Shown one piece after another: positions 8,399 through 37,932 of a DNA stretch of 64,000 nucleotides (position 1 is the stretch's first letter; each line of letters starts with the position of its first letter). A program made the translations under genes and the position numbers. This stretch comes from an uncultured Aliiroseovarius sp. (GTDB lineage: Bacteria; Pseudomonadota; Alphaproteobacteria; Rhodobacterales; Rhodobacteraceae), in assembly GCF_947492455.1 (NCBI RefSeq), contig NZ_CANLNB010000001.1, forward strand, positions 496,001 through 560,000, in the 5' to 3' direction. The notes under the pieces are model-generated. The model saw only the letters and a program-made list of their open reading frames with translations. It had not been told where the DNA came from and searched no databases.

Positions 8399-10327
8399 TC
8401 AAGCCCGCTTTTCGCCGATTTGCGCAACGCCCAGAACGTCCAGCACCTTGGCTTCGATATCCTTGGCCGACAGCTTGGCGTCTTCGTACATCCGCGCAGG
8501 CGATGCGTGGTCGATGAACGTGTCGGGCAGGACCATCGAGCGGAATTTGAGGCCTGTGTCGAACACACCTTCCTCTGCCAACAGCTGCGCCACGTGGCTT
8601 CCGAACCCGCCGACGGCTCCTTCTTCGATGGTGATCAGGGCTTCGTGGTTTTCGGCCAGCGACAGGATCAAATCGCGATCCAGAGGCTTGGCGAATCGAG
8701 CGTCGGCGACGGAGGGTGTGATGCCGCGGGCAGACAGCGCCTCGGCGGCGGCCTCGGCCTCGGCCAAACGCGTGCCGAAGGACAGGATTGCCACGCGCGC
8801 GCCTTCGCGGATCATGCGGCCCTTGCCGATTTCCAGCACCTCACCCTTCTCGGGCAGTTCAACGCCCACGCCTTCGCCACGCGGATAGCGGAAGGCCGAG
8901 GGGCGGTCGTTAATCGAATGCGCGGTTGCGATCATGTGCATCAGCTCGGCCTCGTCCGCCGCAGCCATCAGCACCATGTCGGGCAGGTTGGCCAGGAACG
9001 CGATGTCGAAGGATCCGGCATGGGTCGCCCCATCGGCGCCGACCAGACCTGCGCGGTCGATGGCAAAGCGGACGGGCAGGCGTTGGACGGCCACGTCATG
9101 CACAACTTGGTCGTAGCCACGTTGCAGGAAGGTCGAATACATCGCGCAGAAGGGCTTCATGCCTCCAGCGGCAAGCGCGGCGGCGAAGGTCACGCCGTGT
9201 TGCTCGGCAATGCCCACGTCAAAACAGCGCGAGGGATAGCGTTCCGCCATCAGGTTCAGCCCTGTCCCGTCCGGCATTGCGGCGGTGACGGCGCAAACTT
9301 TGCCGTCCTCGGTAGCGAGCCGTACCAGCTCTTTCCCGAAGACCGAGGTATAACTGGGCGCGTTCGACGGCGCCTTGTGCTGCTTGCCGCTGGCCACGTC
9401 GAACTTCGCGGTGGCGTGGCCACGGTCGCGGGCGGCCTCGGCGGGGGCATAGCCCTTGCCCTTTTTGGTGATCACGTGGATCAGCATCGGGCCGGTGGCG
9501 CGGTCGTGGACGGTGCGCAGAACTGACAGAAGGCTGTCCATGTCATGCCCGTCGATGGGGCCAACGTAAGAAAAGCCCAGTTCCTCGAACAGGGTGCCGC
9601 CGACGGTCATCGACTTAACCATTTCCTTGGCCCGGCGTGCGCCTTCCTGGAAGGGTTCGGGCAGCAGGCTGACCGCGCCCTTGGCGGCGGCTTTCAGCTC
9701 TTGAAACGGTTCTTCGGCGTAAAGGCGGCTGAGATAACTGGATAGTGCGCCCACGGGCGGGGCGATCGACATGTCATTGTCGTTCAGGATCACGAACAGG
9801 CGGCGGTTCAGGTGGCCTGCGTTGTTCATGGCTTCGAACGCCATGCCCGCCGACATCGAGCCATCGCCGATCACGGCCACAGCGTCGCCAATCCCATGTT
9901 CCGGCGCGCCGCCAAGATCGCGGGCGACCGAGAAACCTAAAGCGGCTGAGATCGAGGTCGAGCTATGCCCCGCACCAAACGGGTCAAACGGGCTTTCCGA
10001 GCGTTTGGTGAAGCCAGACAAGCCACCTTCGCACCGCAGGGTGCGGATGCGGTCGCGACGTCCGGTCAGAATTTTGTGCGGATAGCATTGGTGGCCCACG
10101 TCCCAGACGATCCGGTCTTTCGGCGCGTCAAAGACCGCGTGCAGCGCTACGGTCAGCTCAACCACACCCAAACCCGCGCCCAAATGCCCGCCGGTTTCTG
10201 AGACGGCCGAGATCGTCTCGGCCCGGACGTCATGCGCCAGCTGTTCAAGCTCGCGGTCCGACAGGGTTTTCATGTCGGCGGGGACTGCTACGCGGTCCAG
10301 AATCGGTGTTTCGGGTCGGTCAGACAT
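8399..10327 (-). CDS. dxs: 1-deoxy-D-xylulose-5-phosphate synthase
   Basis: A 642-residue transketolase-fold enzyme of full family length. The N-terminal thiamine-diphosphate domain shows [13 protein letters not shown] and [16 protein letters not shown]; the middle domain shows [17 protein letters not shown]. It joins pyruvate and glyceraldehyde 3-phosphate to make DXP, the first step of the MEP isoprenoid pathway. It starts 15 bp after the ispA stop and is last in the run histone-deacetylase-like gene, xseB, ispA, dxs, a common alphaproteobacterial order. Confidence 0.97.
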
Positions 10328-10342
10328 AATTGCCCCGTTTGC

Positions 10343-11197
10343 CTATCTATCGCGCTGGATAACGAAGCGGGCGGCCTCTCGCAAGGTATCGGCATCCTCA
10401 CCATAGGGGGAAAGTGCGTCACAGGCTTGATCTACAAGCTCTTTTGCGCGGGTCTTTGCCGCTTCTAGCCCCAAAAGCGAGACGAAGGTGGCTTTGCCTG
10501 CATCGGCATCTTTGCCAACGGCCTTTCCGACGGCGGCGGCGTCGCCTTCGACGTCCAGAATGTCATCAGCGATTTGGAAGGCCAGACCCAGCGCTTTGGA
10601 ATAGTCCCGCATCGGCGCGATATCCGCCCCCGCTAGAACCGCGCCTGCTTCACCAGACCAACGGATCAGTGCGCCGGTTTTTCCTGCCTGAAGCTCGGTG
10701 ATTTGGTCCAAAGTCAGCGGGACCTCGGCAGTTTCGGCGGCGATATCCAGCGCTTGACCATGCACCATGCCCACTTGACCGGCCGCAATCGCCATAGACT
10801 GAACCAGTGGCACACGCGCGTCGCCCACATCGTCATGGGTTAGCAGCTCGAATGCCAGTGTTTGCAGGGCGTCGCCCACTAGAACGGCGGTCGCGTCGTC
10901 CCATTTCTTGTGCACGGTCGGCAGACCGCGCCGCAGATCGTCGTCATCCATGCAGGGCATGTCATCATGGACCAGCGAATAGGCGTGGATCGCCTCGATC
11001 GCGGCAGCAGGCCACAGGGCGCGGGCCTCGGCCACGCCGTGAATCCGTGCGCCTTCCATCACCAGAAAGGCGCGCAGCCCCTTACCGCCCGCGGTGGCAT
11101 AGCGCATCGGTTCCGCCAGTGCGCCTTTGTCAGAGATCGCAGCGTGCAGATGCGCCCGCGCAGCCCGCGCGGTGTCGTCCAGCCGTGATTTGAACAT
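10343..11197 (-). CDS. ispA: Farnesyl/geranyl diphosphate synthase
   Basis: A 284-residue short-chain polyprenyl synthase. The first aspartate-rich motif is DDMPCMDDDD (78-87) and the second is FQIADDILD near residue 215; GGKGLR near 38 binds isopentenyl diphosphate. It builds the C15 (or C10) diphosphate that feeds quinone, undecaprenyl and carotenoid synthesis. Its ATG directly follows the xseB stop (TAAATG). Product chain length cannot be fixed from the sequence, so the farnesyl assignment is inferred. Confidence 0.92.
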   Translation of the reverse strand: MFKSRLDDTARAARAHLHAAISDKGALAEPMRYATAGGKGLRAFLVMEGARIHGVAEARALWPAAAIEAIHAYSLVHDDMPCMDDDDLRRGLPTVHKKWDDATAVLVGDALQTLAFELLTHDDVGDARVPLVQSMAIAAGQVGMVHGQALDIAAETAEVPLTLDQITELQAGKTGALIRWSGEAGAVLAGADIAPMRDYSKALGLAFQIADDILDVEGDAAAVGKAVGKDADAGKATFVSLLGLEAAKTRAKELVDQACDALSPYGEDADTLREAARFVIQRDR

Positions 11198-11440
11198 TTA
11201 CAGACCTTCGACGGGGGCTGTCCCCGTGGGGGTGCCGTTCTGGTCCAGCGTGATGGCGGCGACCTTTTCTTCGGCCTCTTTCAGCTTGGTTTCGCAGCGC
11301 GCCTTCAGTTCGGCCCCGCGTTCATACAGCTTGATCGAATCTTCAAGCGCCACGTCACCGCGTTCCAGCTGGCCCACGACGGTTTCAAGTTCCCGCATGG
11401 CCTCTTCAAAGGACATTTCGCTTACTGGTGTGTCGCTCAT
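11198..11440 (-). CDS. xseB: Exodeoxyribonuclease VII small subunit
   Basis: An 80-residue mostly helical protein with the family core MSFEEAMRELETVVGQLERGDVALEDSIKLYERG. XseB binds the large subunit XseA to make the nuclease that digests single-stranded DNA. The start overlaps the stop of the upstream deacetylase gene (ATGA at 11437-11440), and the stop abuts the ispA start, so all three are probably co-translated. XseA is not in the window. Confidence 0.93.
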   Translation of the reverse strand: MSDTPVSEMSFEEAMRELETVVGQLERGDVALEDSIKLYERGAELKARCETKLKEAEEKVAAITLDQNGTPTGTAPVEGL

Positions 11441-12372
11441 GCGCCGCGCTCCATCATCACGTTGATATAGGCCCCGACGCTGTCGCCGAGGGCTTCCAGA
11501 TCATAGCCGCCCTCAAGCGACGATACCACCCGCCCATCGCAGCATTTATCCGCCAGATCGCAGATGCGATGCGCCAGCCATGCGAAATCGTTGGTCTCCC
11601 AGTGCAGATTGGCCAGCGGGTCGCGGGTGTGGGCGTCAAACCCGGCGGAGACCAGCACAAGCTGGGGGTTATAGGGCTCGATCTCGTCTGTTAGCACGCG
11701 GTCCCACGCGTCTCGCATTTCCGCGCCACCGGTGCCGCTTTTCAGGGGAAGGTTCAGCACCTGCCCAAACGCGCCTTTTTGGTGGATGCCACCTGACCCC
11801 GGATAGAGCGGCATCTGGTGCGACGACACAAACCGCACCCGGCTTTCATGCCACAGCACATCCTGCGTGCCATTGCCGTGGTGGACGTCGAAATCCAGCA
11901 CCGCCACACGGTCCAGCCCGTGGGTATTGGCTGCATGGATGGCCGCAATGGCGACGGTGGAAAACAGGCAGAAGCCCATCGGTGTCGCTTTCTCGGCGTG
12001 GTGACCCGGGGGGCGGCAGGCGATGAAGGCGTTTTGCGCCTCGCCCGCCATCACGCGGTTCACGGCGTCGATATTACCACCGATGGCCCGCAGGGCGGCT
12101 TCGAACGATCCGGGGGCCATGAACGTGTCGCCATCCAGCTGCGCCCAGCCCTCGACCGGCTGCGCATTCTCGATCCGCTCGAAATAGGCGCGGGAATGGC
12201 CAAGGCGCACGTGGTCCAGCGACGCAACAGGCGGTTTAGGCCGGATTAGAGACTGAAACTGGGGGGCGGACAGGGCGGTTTCGATTGCTTCCAGACGCGC
12301 GACCTGCTCGGGATGGCCGGGCGGGGTGATGTGGTCGAAGCAAACCGGATGGGTGTAAAGCAGCGTTGTCAT
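11437..12372 (-). CDS. Histone deacetylase-family (AcuC/APAH-like) hydrolase
   Basis: A 311-residue protein of the zinc-dependent deacetylase superfamily. Catalytic and metal residues are visible: H124-H125 in RPPGHHAEK, D160-D162-H164 in LDFDVHHGNG, and an aspartate in SAGFDAHTRDP. Bacterial members act on acetylated proteins, acetylpolyamines or related amides; the substrate here is unknown. It is the first gene of the xseB-ispA-dxs operon. An 'acetoin utilisation' label would go beyond the evidence. Confidence 0.88.
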   Translation of the reverse strand: MTTLLYTHPVCFDHITPPGHPEQVARLEAIETALSAPQFQSLIRPKPPVASLDHVRLGHSRAYFERIENAQPVEGWAQLDGDTFMAPGSFEAALRAIGGNIDAVNRVMAGEAQNAFIACRPPGHHAEKATPMGFCLFSTVAIAAIHAANTHGLDRVAVLDFDVHHGNGTQDVLWHESRVRFVSSHQMPLYPGSGGIHQKGAFGQVLNLPLKSGTGGAEMRDAWDRVLTDEIEPYNPQLVLVSAGFDAHTRDPLANLHWETNDFAWLAHRICDLADKCCDGRVVSSLEGGYDLEALGDSVGAYINVMMERGA

Positions 12373-12418
12373 GGCGCGACGCTAGGGCAATAGTGACGCA
12401 ACAACAAGAGAGGTTCCG

Positions 12419-12958
12419 ATGCGCTGGATCATCCCGTTTCTATTGGCCGCATCCCCGGCATGGGCCGAGGGGTTTTCGATGCAGATCAGCGGTGATTTCA
12501 CCGGGGATGGGGTCGAGGATCACGCCGCGCTGATGGACTTCGGACGCACCGGCGATGCCGACCTGCTGCTCAAGCTTGGCGGAGGTGAGACCTTGTGGGT
12601 GCAGGACGTGGTCTGGGTTGGAGGGATCGGACAGCAGCCTTCGCTGACCGTCACGCCGAATGGCTCGCTTCAGGTGATGTCCCACAACAGCGCCATTGGC
12701 CGGAACAGGTGGGAGCAGATTCATACGCTCGCATGGCGCGACGGGGCGATGCGGATCGCGGGCTATACCTATCGTTGGTATGACACGCTGAACCTTGATG
12801 ATATCGGCAGTTGCGACCTGAACCTGCTGTCCGGAAAGGGCGAGGTGTCGACAGGGCAAGACAGCGCAACGCGCGTGATCTCGGTCATGACGCCGGCCTA
12901 TCCGATCCAACACTGGATCTACGATATGCCGCCAGAATGTGCCGCTCTGCTGGAATAG
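12419..12958 (+). CDS. Secreted hypothetical protein with a calcium-type loop
   Basis: A 179-residue protein with a clear signal peptide (MRWIIPFLLAASPAWA) and an early GDFTGDGVEDHAAL segment that resembles the calcium-binding loops of FG-GAP/VCBS or dockerin-like repeats. The rest is beta-rich, with two cysteines late in the chain (SCDLN and PPECA) that could pair in the periplasm. A GAGAGG ribosome site supports the start. It stands alone, divergent from the deacetylase operon. No function is assigned. Confidence 0.65.
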   Translation: MRWIIPFLLAASPAWAEGFSMQISGDFTGDGVEDHAALMDFGRTGDADLLLKLGGGETLWVQDVVWVGGIGQQPSLTVTPNGSLQVMSHNSAIGRNRWEQIHTLAWRDGAMRIAGYTYRWYDTLNLDDIGSCDLNLLSGKGEVSTGQDSATRVISVMTPAYPIQHWIYDMPPECAALLE

Positions 12959-26129: not shown

Positions 26130-26131
26130 AC

Positions 26132-26185
26132 GAAAAAAGGCGCGGAAACCCCCAGCCCATGCGATAAATGTTGAAACTGCGCCGT
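26132..26185 (+). repeat. Left border repeat of the defence block
   Basis: About 54 bp beginning gaaaaaaggcgcgg. It contains cccagcccatgcg, then a base, then taaatgttgaaa, and ends ctgcgcc. A closely similar sequence lies in opposite orientation at 37861-37915, at the other end of the block. The central part of about 26 bp differs at one position. The outer part could also fold as a terminator for uppP (ggcgcgg with ctgcgcc). Confidence 0.65.
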
Positions 26186-26275
26186 TAGGAAAAAAACGGA
26201 GCAAAACCACAGCCGTTTACTAAATCGGTGCCAGCCAAGAAAAGTGGGCGGCCCGATATTCCCCACACAATACTT

Positions 26276-26299
26276 CGGGCCGCAAAATCTTGCGGCCCG
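26276..26299. terminator. Hairpin downstream of the HNH-SAVED gene
   Basis: A perfect 10 bp stem, cgggccgcaa with ttgcggcccg, loop aatc. It lies about 100 bp past the effector gene stop. No long T-run follows on either strand, so termination is only likely. The rest of 26186-26402 shows no gene. Confidence 0.5.
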
Positions 26300-26402
26300 A
26301 TCAAACAATGTCTCAGGAAATAGACACATTTCTACCTTGGTCGAGTATGATATTCTTTAATCGACCCGGCGAATGCGCCCTCTATGGCACCGATTTTAGC
26401 TT

Positions 26403-27560
26403 CTAATCATCTGTTTGCGTCGAAGTTCGGATCTCGTGTCGTACCACGAACCCTTGGTCCGGAACCTGGTCGTAGATCAAGAAGGGCGGATGAACTTTGT
26501 GTTGCCATGCCCGGCCGAATTCGACAGCACACGCAGCTGGCGCTGCCGGAAACACTGACAGTTCTACGCCCATCCCGTGTTGATCTTTGATGGCGTCGAA
26601 TGTCTTACCGACGAGTTCCCGAAAGCGAGAGAGATCATCCTTGTTGCGAAGCTCAGAAGCACCCAGCCTGCTGCTCCGGATCTCCCAGATTGAAACCCGA
26701 TCATCAGGCAGCGCCTGGGTGACACGGTCGTCTGTGATGTCCGCGGTTACAGAAATTTTCAGCGCTACTTTCTTGGTGTCAGTTGTCCCAGGGATACAGG
26801 TGAATTCGAGAGGGTCACGATCGTTCGGCCAGACCCAGCCCGGCGTCGGTTCCCGGTGTCGCCCGTAGACCGATACGGCTGACAGGTCCGAAAGCAGTCG
26901 GCCGAGTTCTATGAGGACGGGCATTGGTGCGAAACCGAAGACCGCGAGATGTTCCAGATCATCGTCTGCGAAACGCCCGTCGATCTCCCGCTGGATCTTT
27001 TTGCGAAGTGCATTGATGACGACGGGGTAATAGTCTGGATCACTGTCCTTCTGCGCAATGTCCCGGATTTTGATGTCGATGGGACGCCGATCTGCTGGGG
27101 TAAACTCTGGTCTCAGGGCCTCGATGCAGTCGCGGAGCGGAACGGCTGTCTCGTTGTCGCCGATCGCAGCAGCAATCCGAAGGATATGGGCGGGCGTTGC
27201 ATTCGGGTTTTCGAGTAGACGCTCGGTCCGTTCCTCGTTGGCACGCTTCATCTCGCGCAAGACCTCTACGGTGTAGCGGTCGATCTTGGCGCGATCGTCG
27301 ATCTCGCGGTGATGCGGATCGCACATCAACATCAGGTTCTCGGGATCGTCCGCGAGCTGGTGCGAACGGACCGGATGGCCACGTTCGCCGCCCGGGTCAG
27401 AGGCTATGATATGAGCCAGGTAGGCATGGTTCTTCGCCAGGTCACCCGTCACAAGGTCGCCGTCGAGGCGCTTACCACAGCCGTGATACTGGCATCGCCC
27501 GGCAGCACGGCCCCAGACGAGAATTCTTGTCTTTTGCGATGGACTACGCCCTCGTGCCAT
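26403..27560 (-). CDS. cap5: HNH-SAVED effector nuclease of CBASS (Cap5-like)
   Basis: A 385-residue two-domain protein. The N-terminal HNH nuclease shows C23-C28, AH50II, N75 in PENLMLMC and C80DPHH84REID. The C-terminal part (about 170-385) resembles SAVED domains, including the typical ending VELSVFPAAPAACAVEFGRAW...HPPFLIYDQ. In characterised Cap5 proteins the SAVED domain binds the cyclic nucleotide and the HNH domain then cuts DNA, killing the infected cell. The ATG at 27560 has AGGAGG six bases upstream and overlaps the E2-like gene by 17 bp. Signal specificity is not readable. Confidence 0.88.
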   Translation of the reverse strand: MARGRSPSQKTRILVWGRAAGRCQYHGCGKRLDGDLVTGDLAKNHAYLAHIIASDPGGERGHPVRSHQLADDPENLMLMCDPHHREIDDRAKIDRYTVEVLREMKRANEERTERLLENPNATPAHILRIAAAIGDNETAVPLRDCIEALRPEFTPADRRPIDIKIRDIAQKDSDPDYYPVVINALRKKIQREIDGRFADDDLEHLAVFGFAPMPVLIELGRLLSDLSAVSVYGRHREPTPGWVWPNDRDPLEFTCIPGTTDTKKVALKISVTADITDDRVTQALPDDRVSIWEIRSSRLGASELRNKDDLSRFRELVGKTFDAIKDQHGMGVELSVFPAAPAACAVEFGRAWQHKVHPPFLIYDQVPDQGFVVRHEIRTSTQTDD

Positions 27561-28044
27561 CCGGAGCCTCCTGTTTCTGCCTGAGGATCTCGCCCACGGA
27601 GATCGGACCCGGCGCGTTCGAGCCGCGCCAGACGCCGTCGAGATGCCAAATTTCATAGAAATGAAGCCACTCGGACGCCCATGGGACAATCCGGTCGGCT
27701 ATGAGCATGGTGCTGTCCCATTCTCCAGCATCAGGGTCAAACAGGCAGAGCGCCGAGTCTGCGGGGGTTTGATGATCATAGTTCAGGTGCGGAAGATCGA
27801 TGAAATCGGTCCCCAGTCGAGGCGCTATTGGCGGATCCAGGACATGGACCAAGGGTACGGCTTTCGGGCTCTGCCATTCCCAGAGTACGGCGACCTTGTA
27901 TTTCATCTGGAAACCCCTGAGAGGCCCGACCCACGCTATGAAACGACCTTCGCTCACCATGCGCGGTTTGAGGTCCGGCCAACGGTGCTCCATACGGTTG
28001 ATCTGCACCTGAGCGGAGCGCGGCTTCCTGGGCTTGGTCTTCAT
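27544..28044 (-). CDS. Stand-alone E2-like protein of type II (short) CBASS
   Basis: A 166-residue protein resembling bacterial E2 ubiquitin-conjugating folds of CBASS operons. Its only cysteine, C100 in DSALCLFDP, sits where the catalytic Cys is expected, and IVPWASEWLHFYEIW follows as in this family. No E1 or JAB gene is present, which fits the 'short' type II (E2-only) class, in which the E2 is reported to modify the C-terminus of the CD-NTase. The ATG overlaps the CD-NTase stop (ATGA). Function is inferred from fold and position. Confidence 0.83.
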   Translation of the reverse strand: MKTKPRKPRSAQVQINRMEHRWPDLKPRMVSEGRFIAWVGPLRGFQMKYKVAVLWEWQSPKAVPLVHVLDPPIAPRLGTDFIDLPHLNYDHQTPADSALCLFDPDAGEWDSTMLIADRIVPWASEWLHFYEIWHLDGVWRGSNAPGPISVGEILRQKQEAPDGTRA

Positions 28045-29282
28045 TTGCCGCGGTGGCCGGGATGGAAGTGGTGGGCAGGGGCCTTCGATACTTGGGTTGC
28101 CTTTTTCGGGGTAGCCGCGATAAGGGCGGGATTAGCCACAAACCCCTTGTTGTGCTCGTAATGAGCAACGCCGGCGGTCGAGGAAAGACCATCGATATAG
28201 GCCCGAACTGCCTTCTCGCCCACCCGTTCGCCAAACAGGTCGTCGAAGATCTTGCGCGTATCCGACAGACTGGAAGACCGTGCACGAGCCAGTTCTGCTA
28301 CCAGATGGCTCAGATCCATCCGGAAGAGTTTCATTTCACGGGTATGTTTCGGCCACCGGTCGTTGAAATTCTCCTCCCAGAGCGCGGGATTGCGTTCTTC
28401 CGGACGACGACCGCTTTCCAGCGCGACTGCCATGCGCCTGTCGAGTTCTGCGGCGTAGCTTTCAAGTTGCGCGCAAATCCCGAAGGGGGACAGGGGAACC
28501 TCGGCGGCGATCTTGGACAGATAGACTGACACCGGACGCTTCTCGTCCCGGTTGGCGTAGCGCAGGTTGAGGTATCGCTTCATGAGCTTGAGGGCGATGA
28601 CCTGCGGTGCATCCCGAACCGGATCAATGGGCTCGGGGAGTGCGTCTATGTCTGCATCGGCCATGATTGTGCCGGGCACCAGGCGATCCTTCATCTGCAG
28701 TTTCGATCGCACATCGCGCACATGATCCTGGAAGCTCTGGCTCGGCATCGTGATGCGTGCCCTGAAGTCTTCCGCAAAGCCGTAGGGATTCACGCGGAAC
28801 CGTTCATCACGTCCTTCGTCGGGGCTGTGATAGATCTCACCGACACGTTCGCGCCGAGGAACTCGGTCCGGATCCATCGGGGTGACGTCCAAGTGCATGA
28901 AGGCGAACTGTAGCTGGATGCAGCGTGTGCAGCGTTCAATTTTCTTCACGTCGGGAAAGCCCTCGAAGGCGGCGTGAAGCTCGTTGAGCACTTGTCTCGG
29001 CGTCCATCCGACCGGGGTGCGGAATTCGAGGATGGCGTCCAGATCGAATCTGTCGTCGTCTGCGCCATGAACGATGGTGGCACCGATGGAGCGGGAGCCT
29101 TGAGGATAGACGAGCGCAGACTCCATATATCGGCGGATTGGACTGTTCGGCCGTTGGAGATGCTCTGGGATAAGGTTATAGCGCCTCGAGGCGACCCGGT
29201 TGTCTCGGTCGCTCAGTTCCATTTCGAGAACTGTCCCCAGCAGTAGGGCATCGAGTTGTGGTGCGGTATCGTCAAGCGGCAT
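28041..29282 (-). CDS. CD-NTase (cGAS/DncV-like cyclic nucleotide synthase)
   Basis: A 413-residue nucleotidyltransferase. The motif QG62SRS is followed by the metal-binding pair D80-L-D82 in DRFDLDAIL and the third aspartate in HLD132VTPMD, the CD-NTase active site. It should make a cyclic oligonucleotide alarm signal on phage infection. The tail (about 385-413) is rich in His, Lys and Gly and ends GHRGK, a possible site for E2-mediated conjugation. ATG 29282 has AAGGAGG upstream. First gene of the three-gene CBASS operon. Confidence 0.9.
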   Translation of the reverse strand: MPLDDTAPQLDALLLGTVLEMELSDRDNRVASRRYNLIPEHLQRPNSPIRRYMESALVYPQGSRSIGATIVHGADDDRFDLDAILEFRTPVGWTPRQVLNELHAAFEGFPDVKKIERCTRCIQLQFAFMHLDVTPMDPDRVPRRERVGEIYHSPDEGRDERFRVNPYGFAEDFRARITMPSQSFQDHVRDVRSKLQMKDRLVPGTIMADADIDALPEPIDPVRDAPQVIALKLMKRYLNLRYANRDEKRPVSVYLSKIAAEVPLSPFGICAQLESYAAELDRRMAVALESGRRPEERNPALWEENFNDRWPKHTREMKLFRMDLSHLVAELARARSSSLSDTRKIFDDLFGERVGEKAVRAYIDGLSSTAGVAHYEHNKGFVANPALIAATPKKATQVSKAPAHHFHPGHRGK

Positions 29283-29452
29283 CGGCAAGGCCTCCTTCAA
29301 AGTGGTGCCCGTTCGATTGCCTCCCTTCAACCATACGCGCTAACAACCACAATATATGGCCGCCCCCGGATTGTTTCAACACTACAAGATGTTTTTTGTT
29401 CCCGGTATGTCCCAGCATTGCCGAACGTAGCACAAAAATAATTTGAAACCTG
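29283..29452. promoter_or_regulatory. CBASS upstream region
   Basis: 170 bp of AT-richer DNA between the CD-NTase start and the decayed zinc-ribbon gene. The CBASS promoter is expected here, but no convincing -35/-10 pair or operator was seen. Confidence 0.3.
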
Positions 29453-29750
29453 TTAGCGCCACCTTTTCGGCCGCCAATTCAGGATCTCCTCGACCTTGAC
29501 CGGACCCTTGGCGAGCTTGAAACGTTTGGCTGGGGTTTCGCCCTTGCCGTCAGCCTTGATGTGGTTGGTGTAGGCTCTGAGGATCGTCAGCAGCTGATGG
29601 ACTTGAGTTGCCCCTCAGACTCTCGTTCGCAGAGGAAGCCTTGGTATTGGCGATACAGGAAATCGATTTTTTCGTAATTGCCTTCGGACACAGGTTTGTG
29701 ACTTCTGCAACGCCCCTGATGGGCTTTTTCGTCACCAACTCCATGAAAAC
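29453..29750 (-). pseudogene. Decayed, internally deleted copy of the zinc-ribbon transposase-like gene
   Basis: Three fragments in different frames align with the intact protein at 36029-37876. ELVTKKPIRGVAEVT...ITKK matches its residues about 194-219. KIDFLYRQYQGFLCERE matches 219-235 (KMDFLYRQ...QERE). LLTILRAYTN...DGKGETPAKR...LAKG matches the last 43 residues (AAILRFYYN...DGDGQTPAMR...LAKG). The middle, about 340 residues, is missing and there are frameshifts. The last fragment still ends in a TAA at 29453. The gap 29751-29961 shows no further gene. Confidence 0.75.
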
Positions 29751-29961
29751 GGTCCTGACCTTTTTTCGGCTTGCGCTGCCTCTTGAAGGACGAGGTAGCG
29801 ACGTAGATTAACTTTCCCAACTACTGCATTTCCGACTAATGTTGCTGCGGGAAGTTCGGAAAAGATCATTTCGATCAAGATTTTGCCCCGGGCACAGATC
29901 CTCAACGATCTCTTCCATTTTGAATTTGGCTAAACTTTTCTCGGTGCTGATCAGTTGCAAT

Positions 29962-33045
<3,084 letters not shown>

Positions 33046-33103
33046 CACATCACCTGCAAATTCTCTTTTGGGCACAGAGCCCGAATACGGAGGGGCAGCC
33101 GCA

Positions 33104-34372
33104 TTACGCGACCGCCTCAACCTGCTCTCTGGCTTCGCCCACGCGCAACTCACCAGACATCAGGCGCGGCAGGAGCGTGTCGCGCAGGGCGGCAAGGGTT
33201 TTGTTTTCCTCCGACAACTGACGGACTTTTTCAAACCAAGGAGAGATCAGCTCATCAAATCTGGAATGAACCGCTTCGCCAGCGAAAACATACGGAATCT
33301 TTTTCATATTCCCCTGATTCAACTTCAGCTGAACAGCGCCTGTAATAAACGCTGAGATTTCAGTTGCATCAAATAGACACTTCAATTGCTCTACGGAGAA
33401 CCTCTTCCCCTTCAGAACATGTGCATGGTTGTTCACCCAGCTTTTCCCCCAGATATACTGGGTAAACGGCTTGCCTTCCCCGTCTGCAACAGATCCATCC
33501 TCACCAACCAGCAGCAGGACTTCGTCAAACAGGTGGTCGTCGACATGATCCATTACGGATGTCGCACCGTAGTATGGAATATCACCTTGTCTCTCAAGCC
33601 TTTGAGCTTTCGACAAAGGGATGCGCTTAGAATCCAAAATCAGGAGCTCTCGTCCGATCGTGCTATCCTCCCACCCCGTCGGCAGGCCCTCTGCGTCGAA
33701 GCTGTCGGGGAAGAGGGCAGCGGTGGCAGCGTCCATGTGGGCGGGGGCGCGGCCCGACGCCTTGGCGTGGACGGGGTCGAAATCGACGAACCAAGACCGA
33801 TACAACGCCCGCGCCATCTCTTCCAAAGTCGCCGCCGTCTTGCGGTTCACCTCGATCTTGTCATCCAGCACCCCGAGGGTAGCGGCGATCTCGCGTTGAG
33901 TTTCGATCGACGGAAGCTCGAACTCAAATTCAAGTATGTTTCCACCGCTAATATGCGGAACCACGCTACCGGTAGAAATGTTGTGAACATGTTCGGTAAA
34001 GCCTTGAGAACCAATAAGGTAGCGTAGGTAGCCTGCGCTCAACTTCTCCGTTTCACGAAAACGCGCCACCCGCTGCACAAGAAGAGACGGTAAATCATCT
34101 TTGGAAACTGCCGAGTATTTTAGGCCCGCTTCGATCCATGGACGATCCATAGCGAGAACCACATCACCTTCTTTCAGATGATACTGGGACAGCTCATTGG
34201 CCAACGGTTCAGGCCAGTATTTCGCAGTTTCCCAGCGCAAGAAGCCCTGACCAATATTATCACCACGCAGAAGTTTTAGACCCTGCCCATCTTTGGAGTA
34301 ATCTTTACTCTTAAAAGGAAAACCAGTTTGGAAATCTACAACATCACCCAATTTGACGGAAACGGCACTCAT
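33104..34372 (-). CDS. hsdS: Type I restriction enzyme, specificity subunit
   Basis: A 422-residue protein with two target-recognition domains (about 5-150 and 215-365), each followed by a conserved helical spacer: [33 protein letters not shown] in the centre and [26 protein letters not shown] at the end. It sets the DNA sequence recognised for methylation and cleavage. It overlaps hsdM by four bases (ATGA). The recognition sequence cannot be predicted here. No inverted partial hsdS copy is present, so phase-variable shuffling is not suggested. Confidence 0.94.
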
Positions 34373-35889
34373 ACCAACGCCCCCAACCGATCCTCGATCT
34401 CCTTCTCCAGCCGTTGCCCTTCGGCAAACTGCTGGCGTAGGGCACCCATTAACCGGGTGAATTTTTCTTCGAAAGGCTCGCCGTCGTCCTCGACCTCTCC
34501 GGCACCGACATATCGGCCTGGGGTGAGGACGAAGTTGTGCTTGGCGATTTCCTCGGTGGTGGCTGATTTGCAGAAGCCTGCCACATCTTCGAATGCGCCT
34601 GCGTCCGGCTCACCACGCCATGCATGGTAAGTGCTGGCGATTTGTTCGATCTCCGCGCGCGACAGCTCTTTCTGCTTACGCGATCCGGGCACCAGCGCGC
34701 CCATTTTGCGGGCGTCGATGAACAGCACCTCGCCCCGCCGGTCGCGCAGCTTGGCGTCTTTGGCCACGCCATTGGATTTGTCTTTGGCGAGGATCCACAG
34801 GCAGGCCGGAATTTGCGTGCCATAAAACAGCTGCCCCGGCAGGGCGACCATGGCATCGACCGCGTCGCCTTCGACCATAGCGCGCCGGATCTCGCCCTCG
34901 CCCCCCGACATGGACGACATCGACCCGTTGGCCAGCACTACACCGCCAATGCCAGACGAGGACAGGTGCGCATGGATATGCTGAAGCCAGGCAAAGTTGG
35001 CATTGCCCACCGGCGGTGCGCCAAAGGCCCACCGCGCATCCTCGCGCAAGAGATCGCCAGACCAGTCCGAGATGTTGAACGGCGGATTGGCGAGGATGTG
35101 GTCGAATCGTTCATCCGGGAAGGCGTCCTTCAGAAGAGTGCCCTCCGAGTTCCAGCGGATTTCAGCAAAGATGCCGCGGATGGCAAGATTCATGCGCGCC
35201 AGACCATAGGTGGTGTGATTGCGTTCCTGACCGTAGATGGCAATGTCGTTCTTCTGGCCCTTGTGGGCGTCGATGAATTTTTCCGACTGCACAAAGAAAC
35301 CACCTGTGCCGCAGCAGGGATCATAGACTCGGCCTTTGGTCGGTTCGATCATCTCAATCAGTGTATCGACGACGGGTTTCGGGGTGTAGAACTCGCCCCC
35401 GCGCTTGCCTTCGGCGGAGGCGAATTCACCGATGAAGTATTCGTAGACCCGACCAATCAGATCGAAGTCTTCTTCACTGCCGGACAGTTTGAAGTTGGTG
35501 AAGAGGTCCATCAGGCCCGACAGCATGCCACGGTCCATGCTTTCCTTGCCGTAGACCTTGGGGAGCGCGCCTTTCAGGCTTTCGTTGTCGGCCTCGATCG
35601 CGCGCATGGCATCGTCGAGCATCACGCCAATCTCGGGGCTCTTGGAGTTCTTGGCCAGATAAGACCAGCGCGCCTTTTCCGGCACCCAGAAGATGTTTTC
35701 GGCCAGGTATTCGTCGCGGTCCTCGGGGTCGGAGTATTCATCGGCAGCGAGCTTGTCATGAAGTCGCTGAAACGACTCGGAGACATAGCGCAGGAAGATC
35801 ATCCCAAGCGCCACATGCTTGTATTCGCCGGGGTCCATGTTGCCCCACATCTTGTCCGCTGCGGCGAACAGGGTTGTTTCAATGCTCAT
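34369..35889 (-). CDS. hsdM: Type I restriction enzyme, methyltransferase subunit
   Basis: A 506-residue N6-adenine methyltransferase. The helical N-terminal domain is followed by the SAM-binding motif DPCCGTGGFFV and the catalytic NPPFNISDW. It methylates adenines at the sites chosen by HsdS and protects the host. GAGGACG precedes the ATG. First gene of hsdM-hsdS-hsdR, 139 bp downstream of the zinc-ribbon gene, all in one direction. Confidence 0.96.
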   Translation of the reverse strand: MSIETTLFAAADKMWGNMDPGEYKHVALGMIFLRYVSESFQRLHDKLAADEYSDPEDRDEYLAENIFWVPEKARWSYLAKNSKSPEIGVMLDDAMRAIEADNESLKGALPKVYGKESMDRGMLSGLMDLFTNFKLSGSEEDFDLIGRVYEYFIGEFASAEGKRGGEFYTPKPVVDTLIEMIEPTKGRVYDPCCGTGGFFVQSEKFIDAHKGQKNDIAIYGQERNHTTYGLARMNLAIRGIFAEIRWNSEGTLLKDAFPDERFDHILANPPFNISDWSGDLLREDARWAFGAPPVGNANFAWLQHIHAHLSSSGIGGVVLANGSMSSMSGGEGEIRRAMVEGDAVDAMVALPGQLFYGTQIPACLWILAKDKSNGVAKDAKLRDRRGEVLFIDARKMGALVPGSRKQKELSRAEIEQIASTYHAWRGEPDAGAFEDVAGFCKSATTEEIAKHNFVLTPGRYVGAGEVEDDGEPFEEKFTRLMGALRQQFAEGQRLEKEIEDRLGALV

Positions 35890-36028
35890 TTTGCGTCCTC
35901 AAAAAGTGCCGTTTCTTGCAGGGTATATGGGGGCAGAACCCATTTTCCAGAAACCGATTTTCCCAAATAATCAACGCAACCATAGCGTGATGATGGGATG
36001 ATGCAAACCATTGCATTTCGGGCGAAAA

Positions 36029-37876
36029 TCATGAGTAGGACAGAAGATCGCGGGCATAGATCTTCCCCTTTGCCAAACCCAGTCGCATTGCGGGCGTTTG
36101 GCCGTCGCCGTCTCGCGGAACCAACATGTAGTTGTAGTAAAACCGAAGGATGGCGGCCATCTTGGGAACCATCTCGGGGTTGTAGAACGAGTAGGCATGC
36201 CAGATGCGTTGATCGTTGGATGCCGTGGGAACCCCGCGCTCAAAAGCCGGGACACGCCTCCTGGCCAAATTGAAGTATGAATCCACTGGGTGAATGGTGG
36301 CGCTTGAAAAGAACTTCGCCAATCCGTCCCAGCCCATGTCATCCAAATCAGTCTTGAGACGGATGGTCTTGAAGGGCTCCGATTTCGTGTGGAAGGGCCA
36401 CGGCACTCCTGACTTGGCAAGCTTTGCGGCTCTTTCGGCTGGAGAGAGCGTTCGATAGTTTTTCCACAACAGGATGAGGGTGATTGCCTGGAAGTCGCTC
36501 AAATGCGGGAAATCAGCTTTTACCAAGGCCATGTTTTGGGTTTCGGCAGCAATGGCGTTGGTCAGCATGGCTCTGCCCCGCGACGCCAAGGCTTGGCGAT
36601 CATCGTTGATCATCCCCTTTTTGAAGCTGACCTCCGCGACATTCACGCGACCGGCTTTGATGGCCTCAACATTCAGAGCGCAAACGGCCGCGGCAAGCCC
36701 AGCCTCGTCATCAAGGCAATAATTTGCGGTTTTGAACCGGTCTCCGATCAGTTTCTTCACCAGCATCATGTGTGCAAACTTGAATGCATCGCCGCGGACC
36801 CTGCTTCCATGCCCCGGAAGCCGCAACTTGCCGGCAGTGGCGATGTCATCCTTGGAAAATCGTGCGCCCTGTGAGCGCATTAGGGAATCCTGATACTCCG
36901 ACGCCGCCCAAAGCCTTGCGTGTCTGCGCATGCTACGCGGCAAGCCGAAATCCCCGCAGTTTGCCATCGCGCTCTCAAGGTCTTCAGGGGAGATCGCTGC
37001 GTCGTAGTCAACGGTGGAGGCCACCACGAACTGAGAGAATTTATGGACGGTTGCCATATGCAACAGCGGAATTGTCCCACGCCGCTGCTTGACAGGCCAG
37101 TTGACCAATATTGTCTGGATGTCGGTCGAGAAAAATGGCTTCCGATCTTCAAAGCACGCATCAAGGCGCTTCTCTCGCTCCTGAGCAAAGGCGACCGCCT
37201 GCCGGTAGAGGAAATCCATCTTGCTGTGGATCTGCTTCAAGCTGACATCATGGATTTCACAGATCCGGCTCAAGGGCACCTTGTTCACCAAACACTTCAT
37301 GATCGCACCAGTGTCATCCGTCGACTTGTGCCGCCTTGTGGGTTTGCCGACCGAAAAGGTCTTTTTGCAGGCTTTGCATTGATACCGGGGATCACCCTTC
37401 GCCGTTTTTCCGAAGGACGAGTAAGAACTCGGGCTAAGGGAAATTTCCACACCATGGTTCTCACAGGCCAGATTTTGGCAGTGTTTTCCGTTTGTTCTCC
37501 TATTCAGGCGGCGCAGTCTCCAATACTCTTCAGCCAAGGCACGGTTGGATTTCACGATGTTGGATCCGCCACATGAAGGGCAGAAGTAGGTTCGTTCCTC
37601 GCCCGCGCCGCTGATCTTCCCTCGGTCACCCGATGGATTGGGTTTTCCCCTTCCATCAAGAGGATCAGGTAAGCGACCGAAGGCTTCGCAGAGCGGGTTT
37701 CTGCAGAAGTTGACCGAGAATCCACCGGGGGTTGTCGGAAGTCTTCTTTTTGCAACTCTCGAAGATTTCTTCGAGGCCTTTCCGGCAGATTTCTTCACAC
37801 TCTTCTTAGCCACGGCCCTGCCCACAAAAGGTAAACACCCCGCCAGATTACTGACGGGGCGCAGAACTTTCAACAT
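36029..37876 (-). CDS. Zinc-ribbon, DDE-transposase-like protein
   Basis: Up to 615 residues. A Lys-rich start (about 24-46) is followed by four cysteine pairs (C58-C63, C99-C102, C133-C138, C167-C170), so two zinc ribbons, then an HTH-like region (about 190-220) and FFSTD252IQTILVNW, which looks like the first strand of an RNase H-fold DDE domain. The zinc-ribbon/HTH/DDE order recalls IS1-type transposases. Start could be ATG 37876 or GTG 37810; the first lies inside the border repeat. Catalytic residues two and three were not confirmed. A decayed relative lies at 29453-29750. Confidence 0.6.
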   Translation of the reverse strand: MLKVLRPVSNLAGCLPFVGRAVAKKSVKKSAGKASKKSSRVAKRRLPTTPGGFSVNFCRNPLCEAFGRLPDPLDGRGKPNPSGDRGKISGAGEERTYFCPSCGGSNIVKSNRALAEEYWRLRRLNRRTNGKHCQNLACENHGVEISLSPSSYSSFGKTAKGDPRYQCKACKKTFSVGKPTRRHKSTDDTGAIMKCLVNKVPLSRICEIHDVSLKQIHSKMDFLYRQAVAFAQEREKRLDACFEDRKPFFSTDIQTILVNWPVKQRRGTIPLLHMATVHKFSQFVVASTVDYDAAISPEDLESAMANCGDFGLPRSMRRHARLWAASEYQDSLMRSQGARFSKDDIATAGKLRLPGHGSRVRGDAFKFAHMMLVKKLIGDRFKTANYCLDDEAGLAAAVCALNVEAIKAGRVNVAEVSFKKGMINDDRQALASRGRAMLTNAIAAETQNMALVKADFPHLSDFQAITLILLWKNYRTLSPAERAAKLAKSGVPWPFHTKSEPFKTIRLKTDLDDMGWDGLAKFFSSATIHPVDSYFNLARRRVPAFERGVPTASNDQRIWHAYSFYNPEMVPKMAAILRFYYNYMLVPRDGDGQTPAMRLGLAKGKIYARDLLSYS

Positions 37877-37915
37877 TTACCGCATGGGCTGGGCGGAAAC
37901 CCGCGCCTTTTTCTA
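37861..37915 (-). repeat. Right border repeat of the defence block
   Basis: On the minus strand it reads gaaaaaggcgcgg, cccagcccatgcg, g, taaatgttgaaa, gtt, ctgcgcc. This matches the left border repeat (26132-26185) in opposite orientation, with short gaps. It begins 18 bp from the NDUFA9-type gene stop. The nearby plus-strand segment ccccg...cgggg (about 37838-37858) could form an extra hairpin. Confidence 0.65.
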
Positions 37916-37932
37916 ACTGATGAGCCGTCGGC

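Follow-up and report, generated by a model that had tools for sequence, protein, structure and literature searches.

Insertion sequences of the IS1595 family generate 8-bp target-site duplications (TSDs), and the family includes a large, passenger-carrying ISNha5 subgroup. Among cargo transposons, Tn7 uses TnsD to read the glmS sequence and inserts downstream of it (attTn7), and mobile restriction-modification (RM) units, in which RM genes move with flanking repeats, have reportedly been described by Kobayashi and colleagues. According to published work, (i) IS1595 elements of Beta- and Gammaproteobacteria favor positions 500 to 550 bp from the nearest gene (PMC9208149), a spacing that gives no hint of a general preference for terminators in IS1595; (ii) the target choice of IS1397 and ISKpn1 is attributed to the transposase, and insertion sequences that target REP repeats are placed in the IS3, IS110, IS4, IS256, and IS5 families (PMC1525189); and (iii) bacterial C-type group II introns insert at rho-independent terminators, sparing coding sequence (PMC8919778, citing Robart 2007). 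Neither DDE transposons homing to terminator loops nor the family described here were found in the titles and abstract openings returned by searches of an open-access literature collection.

The locus analyzed here lies in a 64-kb stretch of DNA (the window) from an uncultured Aliiroseovarius sp., in which a block of genes separates uppP from an NDUFA9-type gene (Table 1). This block (element 1, 26152-37892) is very probably an IS1/IS1595-related transposon that inserted into a terminator loop, in keeping with a site preference of its family, and that carries exchangeable cargo. A preliminary description had noted an inverted repeat beside each of the two bordering genes and had read the pair as the terminal inverted repeats (TIRs) of a mobile unit with two defense systems. 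The pair was found where described, with the sequences at 26151-26176 (+) and 37868-37893 (-) complementary at 25 of 26 bases, and the reading as a mobile unit was supported by a TSD, by empty sites, and by the same ends elsewhere. Each end of element 1 carries a TIR of about 25 bp running from CCAGCC to GAAA. When the 64 kb were shuffled by dinucleotides, the expected number of such repeat matches was none, and a search of the 3.09-Mb genome allowing up to three mismatches returned only these two copies, so the repeat does not recur at many gene ends. Counter to the earlier statement that no TSD was visible, an exact 10-bp duplication, GCGGAAACCC, is present outside both TIRs; it reads as 8 bp, CGGAAACC, when the TIR start is moved one base outward. 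The uppP-NDUFA9 junction, which had been proposed as a place to look in related genomes, was empty in all 20 of the other genomes of the genus searched; a hairpin is present at these junctions and the TIRs are absent from every one. The same ends were also found around different cargo in other genomes, where the TIR flanks units that encode a transposase and have exact TSDs. TIRs at both ends, a TSD, and an empty site in relatives, the features by which a DNA transposon is recognized, are all present in element 1, and the inverted repeats at 26152 and 37892 are real transposon ends.

Table 1. Features of element 1 and its borders, in window coordinates
Feature	Position	Strand	Evidence
Left half of split uppP/NDUFA9 terminator (A-run, GC arm, loop)	26133..26151	.	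Resembles intact hairpin at congeners' empty site
TSD, left copy, GCGGAAACCC	26142..26151	.	Direct repeat adjoining TIR
Distal TIR of element 1	26152..26176	+	Repeat pair, genome-unique
Putative terminator half at the element 2 insertion (A-run, GC arm; AAAAAAACGGAGC)	26190..26202	+	Sequence; inference
Putative distal TIR of nested element 2, ACAGCCGTTTACTAAATCGGTGCC	26209..26232	+	16-mer match to L148 TIR
CBASS HNH-SAVED effector	26403..27689	-	PF18145 7e-40; PADLOC Endonuclease effector 3e-135
CBASS E2-like protein	27544..28044	-	PADLOC E2, 5e-47
CBASS CD-NTase	28041..29330	-	PADLOC Cyclase PDLC00813, 1e-218
Decayed second transposase, L148/L151 subfamily; middle and C-terminal pieces in different frames	29462..29802	-	tblastn
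HsdR, restriction subunit	29962..33153	-	PF04313, PF18766, PF11867; PADLOC REase_I
HsdS, specificity subunit	33104..34372	-	PF01420; PADLOC Specificity_I
HsdM, type I methyltransferase	34369..35889	-	PF02384 1e-102; PADLOC MTase_I
Transposase, 594 aa, IS1/IS1595-like zinc ribbon, D231 and D368 invariant	36029..37813	-	NF050000; alignment of 24 sequences
Terminator-like hairpin followed by T-rich sequence, reading inward, just inside transposase-side TIR	37835..37862	-	12-bp stem
Transposase-side TIR of element 1	37868..37892	-	Repeat pair, genome-unique
TSD, right copy, GCGGAAACCC	37893..37902	.	Direct repeat adjoining TIR
Right half of split uppP/NDUFA9 terminator (loop, GC arm, T-run)	37893..37915	.	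Comparison with congeners' empty site

The preliminary description had taken the repeat as 55 bp long, of which only the inner part of about 25 bp is TIR. The outer similarity (gaaaaa-ggcgcgg) represents the two arms of the pre-existing uppP/NDUFA9 terminator hairpin, divided at the loop, and these arms appear as an inverted repeat because hairpin arms are inverted-repeated by nature. A TIR comprising all 55 bp was rejected on the grounds that the outer part varies among elements and that in the window it matches the empty-site terminator. The alternative raised at the outset, a terminator-like repeat, was right in that the target is a terminator whose split arms form the outer part, but did not account for the whole repeat. 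In its full form, this alternative holds that the repeats merely represent a terminator or other regulatory sequence copied where convergent genes end and that the block is an ordinary defense island, and although the outer part of each repeat truly is a terminator arm, we consider it scarcely credible given the two genomic copies, the 20 empty sites that have a hairpin without a TIR, the TSD, and the transposase units elsewhere that the same TIR flanks with exact TSDs. Among the candidate explanations dismissed were a terminator-only repeat, by those same 20 empty sites, and a chance origin of the repeats or of the targeting, by the genome-unique repeats, the shuffles, and the control positions described below. 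At the window site, the stem has 13 pairs and is offset by 1 nt from the center of the TSD. Element 1 would have entered the loop of a bidirectional intrinsic terminator between the convergent uppP and NDUFA9 genes, making the 10-bp TSD, and an insertion at such a loop would leave coding sequence intact. The hairpin just inside the transposase-side TIR is a consensus feature in 10 aligned sequences (the window and nine relatives), with both sides changed at two of its pairs, and hairpins within the element ends may substitute for the broken terminator and guard the transposase against read-through.

The intact transposase-like gene encodes a transposase that is presumably of the DDE type. It scored 29.9 bits against the IS1/IS1595 N-terminal zinc-binding model NF050000 (cut-off 28) and 31.6 bits against the IS1 equivalog NF033558, below the cut-off of 100. 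Across 24 aligned transposases, the zinc-ribbon model was matched by 21 and the NCBIfam IS1 model by 22 (E ≤ 0.01 for both; the window protein falls below the cut-off of the latter), weak matches to an IS256-type zinc model were found in 20, and D231 and D368 were invariant in all 24, with E479 or D511 (each in 23 of 24) as candidate third catalytic acid. Element 1 would belong to an IS1/IS1595-related family whose zinc-ribbon transposase, at ~600 aa, is unusually large. The N-terminal zinc ribbon, the weak IS1 profile match (22/24), the TIRs, the short TSDs, and the presence of passenger genes in some members are shared with IS1/IS1595; however, the family differs in (i) a transposase of mostly ~570-620 aa, with no full IS1 match in the window protein; (ii) TSDs of 9-10 bp and ends of CCAGCC or CAAGCC; and (iii) a terminator-loop target and restriction cargo. 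The TSDs of the 28-element set described below were taken as 9 or 10 bp rather than the 8 bp of IS1595, several being readable as 8 bp with one extra TIR base and those of L085, L141, L145, and L153 as 11 bp with one TIR base fewer. Relatives of the transposase occur in Pseudomonadota and Bacillota, and the four plasmid records examined from Pseudomonadota label them 'hypothetical protein'; among the 86 matches of two peptide patterns to viral contigs there was no relative. A PDB profile search matched 119 sequences, with nearly all of the 60 matches listed being zinc-finger chains, and a PHROGs search gave two weak transposase matches. An AlphaFold model from a six-sequence alignment had a pLDDT of 37.6 and was unusable for fold.

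The relationship of insertion to hairpins was examined in 28 complete elements, with a site passing when a stem of ≥8 pairs was centered within 1.5 nt of the TSD center. This was the case for 22 of the 28, compared with 1,289 of 65,820 control positions (2.0%) in the same loci and 1,724 of 72,650 positions (2.4%) located 8-70 nt after the stops of open frames of at least 120 codons, both control sets being taken from the mostly coding flanks of these loci. Moving the center by 4-30 nt reduced the passes to 0-2 of 28. No pair among the joined sites exceeded 70% ungapped identity, AAA precedes 25 and TTT follows 24 of the sites, and by eye there is no common target sequence but a common shape, namely a GC-rich hairpin dyad that in most cases has an A-run on one side and a T-run on the other. 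A further six sites, weaker or found separately (L080, L092, L169, L171, L077, and L078), contributed two passes (24/34 overall), including L078, a Bacillota relative at ~23% identity located in a hairpin whose stem has 13 pairs. The failures at L075, L085, L139, L142, L152, and L156 within the 28, and at L092, L169, L171, and L077 among the six, indicate that the preference is not absolute. Left out of the 28 were loci with one end only or at a contig end (L069/L138, L070/L096, L071, L072/L079, L074, L083, L140, and L149), those with a partial transposase or without a TIR pair (L087, L090, L091, L093, L094, L097, L157, and L129-L135), the partial matches L113-L117, L121, L123, and L137, the weak calls L080 and L092, the plasmid loci L168-L171, and the Bacillota loci L077/L078; the duplicate copies L073/L081 and L095/L098 were each counted once. 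At plasmid loci L168 and L170 an exact TSD was not found; each of their ends adjoins an A-run and then GC-rich sequence.

These data bear on how the sites are chosen. Insertion may be random, with survival only between genes and terminators struck through their location; survivorship of intergenic insertions is normal for insertion sequences and some family sites are not hairpins, but the proportion of centered TSDs relative to that downstream of stops, and the loss of signal upon 4-nt shifts, make this very unlikely. Targeting through transcription (a paused polymerase, an R-loop, or a nascent RNA hairpin) or through host proteins, rather than through the DNA dyad, would fit with the likeness of the targets to transcription signals that contain A- or T-tracts; we regard it as rather unlikely, given that the two halves of the TSD lie symmetrically around the axis of the dyad, an arrangement that would be expected of a two-fold symmetric transpososome on symmetric DNA. 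The family would instead favor terminator hairpin dyads and cut symmetrically about the loop. Such behavior resembles that of IS1397, ISKpn1, and IS621, whose transposases pick a palindromic intergenic target, yet their targets are REP repeats and those here are terminators of diverse sequence, and the profile that fits best here is that of IS1/IS1595, notwithstanding a weak match to an IS256-type zinc model. With C-type group II introns the family shares the rho-independent terminator as insertion site, but those are retroelements landing just after the terminator, whereas the present family consists of DNA elements that have TIRs and TSDs and divide the terminator at its loop. Like Tn7, the family combines cargo with insertion at a safe position beyond the end of a gene; unlike Tn7, it uses no single target sequence. 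The case for transposition of element 1 is a computed one, drawn from ends, TSD, empty sites, split hairpin, target bias, and cargo; we infer DDE chemistry, dyad recognition (as a cruciform or a symmetric duplex), terminator replacement, and nesting.

The cargo was as previously listed, namely CBASS, type I RM, and an intact and a decayed transposase-like gene, all on the minus strand. Open frames for HsdM, HsdS, and HsdR are all present, and a CBASS system is predicted by PADLOC from its genes, a CD-NTase and an effector with an E2-like protein. In element L067, an 8.06-kb unit of transposase and type I RM with its own TIRs and a TSD of GCCCAGAGGC, the transposase-hsdM and hsdR DNA is 89% identical to that of the window. 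Among the 17 complete elements whose cargo was scanned, 9 carried genes for restriction or for DNA methylases, of several types unrelated to one another, and 7 had no recognized defense gene. Cargo would occupy the stretch from the transposase to the far end, be exchanged, and in many members consist of RM genes. Kobayashi-type units are reportedly similar in that RM genes travel as units with flanking repeats.

The CBASS genes are somewhat likely to have arrived with a second, decayed family member (element 2) nested near the far end of element 1. The decayed pieces match the L151 transposase by tblastn (E-values of 2e-13 and 5e-8 for the C-terminal and middle pieces, respectively), and a 16-mer of the putative distal TIR, CAGCCGTTTACTAAAT, has one mismatch to the L148 TIR and a single copy in the genome. 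This TIR was first spotted by eye and tested afterwards, so its significance is post hoc, and in an ungapped scan position 26209 scored 17/24, compared with 18/24 for an unrelated coding position (28220) against another family TIR; this end is argued from its 16-bp core and its location. It is somewhat less likely that CBASS joined the RM transposon by ordinary recombination, the adjoining transposase remnant being unrelated debris. Consistent with this, the transposase-side TIR of element 2 was not found, and neither a family transposase nor a TIR was present in the 19.9 kb read at the closest relative of the 3.0-kb CBASS segment (L164, 94% identical), where one side spans only 4.2 kb (contig start). 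However, the remnant belongs to the same transposase family, CBASS occupies the cargo position, and an L148-type TIR that is single-copy in the genome, with an A-run and a GC arm ahead of it, lies where the far end would be expected. A second family member carrying CBASS would have inserted near the far end of element 1 and then decayed.

Because family members would carry terminators, one member could become the target of the next, and defense cargo could thereby stack, as RM and CBASS appear to do here. Whether a widespread transposon family homes to intrinsic-terminator dyads as a sequence-independent safe harbor, carries hairpins that may replace the terminator, and ferries exchangeable restriction and defense systems that can stack is, in our judgment, evenly balanced. 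The analysis explains one defense island base by base, supplies a likely function for proteins that carry a hypothetical label, and predicts that other such islands sit at split terminators. It would also provide one concrete route for the movement and stacking of defense genes, through a transposon whose preferred site, the terminator loop, is very common and nearly harmless. If the transposase does read DNA shape and not sequence, it would be a useful model of target choice and possibly a tool for gene-end insertion.

The termini of the predicted transposon (26152-37892), which lies between the convergent uppP and NDUFA9-type genes, were examined for their repeats and target site. The preliminary description had reported inverted repeats at these borders, and such a pair was found there with 25 of 26 bases complementary; the dinucleotide-shuffled window contained no match to it. 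The search for further copies that had been proposed returned only these two among the 3,090,720 bases of the genome (≤3 mismatches), and an 81-bp repeat query used in BLAST against the same genome gave only weak matches elsewhere (best E 0.018). At the left edge, gaaaaaaGGCGCGGAAACCC adjoins the element sequence CCAGCCC, and at the right edge the element sequence GGGCTGG adjoins GCGGAAACCCGCGCCtttttc. Although no target-site duplication (TSD) had been seen previously, GCGGAAACCC is duplicated, with one copy at each edge beside the terminal inverted repeat (TIR). The NDUFA9-type gene was present in all 21 Aliiroseovarius-genus genomes searched (own genome included), and uppP directly adjoined it in the other 20, which provides the empty junction that had been suggested for comparison. 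The intergenic stretch of these 20 genomes is 54-89 nt and hairpin-forming in every case (21 table rows, with L037 and L038 representing one genome), commonly as GGCGCGG-loop-CCGCGCC preceded by an A-run and followed by a T-run. Taken with the flank sequences, this hairpin shows that the block separates the two terminator arms, the break lying in the loop. Thus, the 55-bp repeat described earlier combines a true terminal repeat (the inner ~25 bp) with the split hairpin outside it, which explains why a 55-bp repeat was seen without a TSD. Two other genomes of the genus, G003 (taken to be locus L068) and G001 (locus L095), have an empty uppP site and carry an element or a 2.2-kb deleted copy, respectively, in a different terminator, showing mobility within the genus.

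Target sites were compared across 28 complete elements, with ends and TSDs (lengths taken as 9 or 10 bp) located without hairpin information by a TIR-core search, a search without the core and, for L095, separately. When the flanks were joined, 22 of 28 showed a stem of ≥8 pairs (1 mismatch allowed) whose centre lay no more than 1.5 nt from that of the TSD. The same stem test was passed by 1289/65820 (2.0%) of control positions from the same loci, by 1724/72650 (2.4%) of those 8-70 nt after the stops of open frames of at least 120 codons, and by 0-2 of 28 when the TSD centre was shifted by 4-30 nt. The elements without such a stem were L075, L085, L139, L142, L152, and L156; L139 and L156 do form hairpins, but these are interrupted or lie off centre. 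Another six cases (two weak, four plasmid/Bacillota) gave two passes (L080 and, with 13 pairs around a 9-bp TSD, L078) and four failures, for a total of 24/34. By eye, the TSDs have no common sequence. Apparently the same 3.3-kb Bacillota element (9323-12598) was detected in two genera as L077 and L078, with ends matching at 26/26 bases; one copy occupies the 13-pair hairpin loop, and the AT-rich DNA around the other forms no centred hairpin. Plasmid loci L169 and L171 are exceptions to the target rule: their TSDs are clean, but no hairpin is centred on the insertion site. Several TIR-like repeats in both orientations were observed beside one element at L085:14935-18221, suggesting repeated insertion at one terminator. 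At L170:9816-15895 (Acidovorax temperans plasmid pEP1), two well-matched TIRs lie 6 kb apart without a TSD, and the flanks resemble, by eye, halves of two different terminators; this locus is perhaps a recombinant of two insertions.

All genes of the window element share one orientation (see table).

Features of the window element and their positions
Feature	Position	Strand	Remarks
Left inverted repeat	26151-26176	plus	
A-run and GC arm	26190-26202		just inside left TIR
CBASS segment matching L164	26416-29413		
CBASS operon: CD-NTase, E2-like protein, HNH-SAVED effector		minus	PADLOC; last from right end
Decayed transposase pieces	29462-29802	minus	between hsdR and CBASS
HsdM, HsdS, HsdR		minus	profile matches; next after transposase from right end
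Transposase, 594 aa	36029-37813	minus	GTG start; IS1/IS1595-type zinc ribbon, NF050000 29.9 bits (cut-off 28)
Right inverted repeat	37868-37893	minus	

Relatives of the transposase were detected at 12 loci in genome contigs and in 97 plasmid records. They occurred in 18/394 genomes of the taxonomic family (E ≤ 1e-10) and in 19/292 of the order, 4/385 of the class, and 14/398 of the phylum (E ≤ 1e-20), with these draws overlapping and the own genome counted in them. RefSeq names the protein 'hypothetical protein' in all four Pseudomonadota plasmid records opened; many Bacillota records in the plasmid listing read 'insertion element protein'. The same ends were found around other cargo, a comparison that had been suggested: at loci L067-L074 the TIR 5′ of the transposase matches 22-25 of 25 consensus bases, and the cargo of relatives differs. 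L067, which offers the clearest comparison, is an 8,057-bp unit of transposase, hsdM, hsdS, and hsdR with exact TIRs and the TSD GCCCAGAGGC; its DNA is 89% identical to the window both in the transposase-hsdM part and in hsdR, and hsdS contains divergent stretches. The G001 copy (L095:15254-17459) retains both TIRs, the TSD CGGAAAATCC, the transposase start, and a DUF4096 (IS4/5) fragment, and, in a different species of the genus, represents a derivative that is either dead or non-autonomous.

Passenger genes were scanned or compared in 17 of the 28 complete elements, and restriction-modification (RM) or DNA-methylase genes were identified in nine. Type I RM cargo is carried by the window element, L067, L068 (assigned from its DNA similarity to the window), and L073, as well as by the one-ended loci L069, L072, and L074; this group represents a single lineage, not independent gains. 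Judged by ORF length, RM genes are seemingly broken in some (e.g., L073 and L074). Other cargo includes (i) an MmeI-like gene with a T5orf172 protein (L148); (ii) a BsuBI/PstI endonuclease and Eco57I-type methylase (L152); (iii) a NotI-like endonuclease and D12 methylase (L153); (iv) a DNA methylase and a 309-aa protein with weak similarity to a type II endonuclease (L154); and (v) a methylase and specificity subunit (L155). The transposases of L152, L153, and L154 are 68-70% identical among themselves, yet their restriction genes are unrelated, which is direct evidence for cargo exchange. In L145 one protein is Abi_C by Pfam but has no PADLOC match, and a 1414-aa protein encoded by L168, a relative on a Polaromonas plasmid, matches PADLOC MkoC (2e-157). 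No recognised defence genes were found in seven of the 17 (L075, L082, L084, L139, L142, L144, and L156); in Ruegeria denitrificans (L075:9901-16994) the cargo is sulfatase, HAD, and SpoIIAA-like genes. Of two ORFs scanned in L095 (transposase deleted), one matched DUF4096 and one had no match.

The CBASS side of the window element is, with moderate confidence, a nested second family member. The decayed pieces best match the L148/L151 subfamily (E 2e-13, vs 2e-7 for the intact transposase), and CBASS follows them in cargo position. The A-run and GC arm inside the left TIR are followed by ACAGCCGTTTACTAAAT, with a 16-bp core that is unique in the genome and differs from the L148 TIR at 1 position. 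This second member would have entered a terminator close to the distal end of the first element, and its transposase end would later have been lost. However, its other TIR is missing, and the CBASS segment has a counterpart with 94% identity across 2,999 bp in a genome of another genus (G313, L164:4259-7256), where the 19.9 kb examined contained neither a transposase nor a TIR of this family.

The zinc ribbon places the family close to IS1 and to IS1595. The window protein scores below the IS1 equivalog cut-off, however, and the TSDs of the family, taken as 9 or 10 bp, differ from the 8-bp duplications of IS1595 elements. The ISNha5 subgroup of IS1595, large and with passenger genes, is presumably the likeliest named home of the family. 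In passages of PMC9208149, IS1595 is over-represented between co-oriented genes, with a preferred distance to the nearest gene of 500-550 bp in Beta- and Gammaproteobacteria; this preference, as given there, is no indication that IS1595 in general targets terminators. REP-targeting IS elements (PMC1525189) and terminator-inserting C-type group II introns (PMC8919778) are functional analogies but not relatives. No reports of terminator-loop targeting by such transposons were found in the open-access literature searched.

Hairpins were also detected 20-150 bp inside the ends of the 28 elements. At the transposase end, a terminator-like hairpin with a T-run on the transposase strand was found in 21; at the far end, an inward-reading hairpin was found in 22 and an outward-reading one in 14. 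Such hairpins occurred in 55/560 control windows of 130 nt taken from the predominantly coding flanks. The transposase-end hairpin is kept across 10 aligned sequences (the window and nine relatives), with changes on both sides that keep pairing at two pairs (columns 35-58 and 40-53). These end hairpins may block read-through into the transposase and may replace the terminator broken by insertion.
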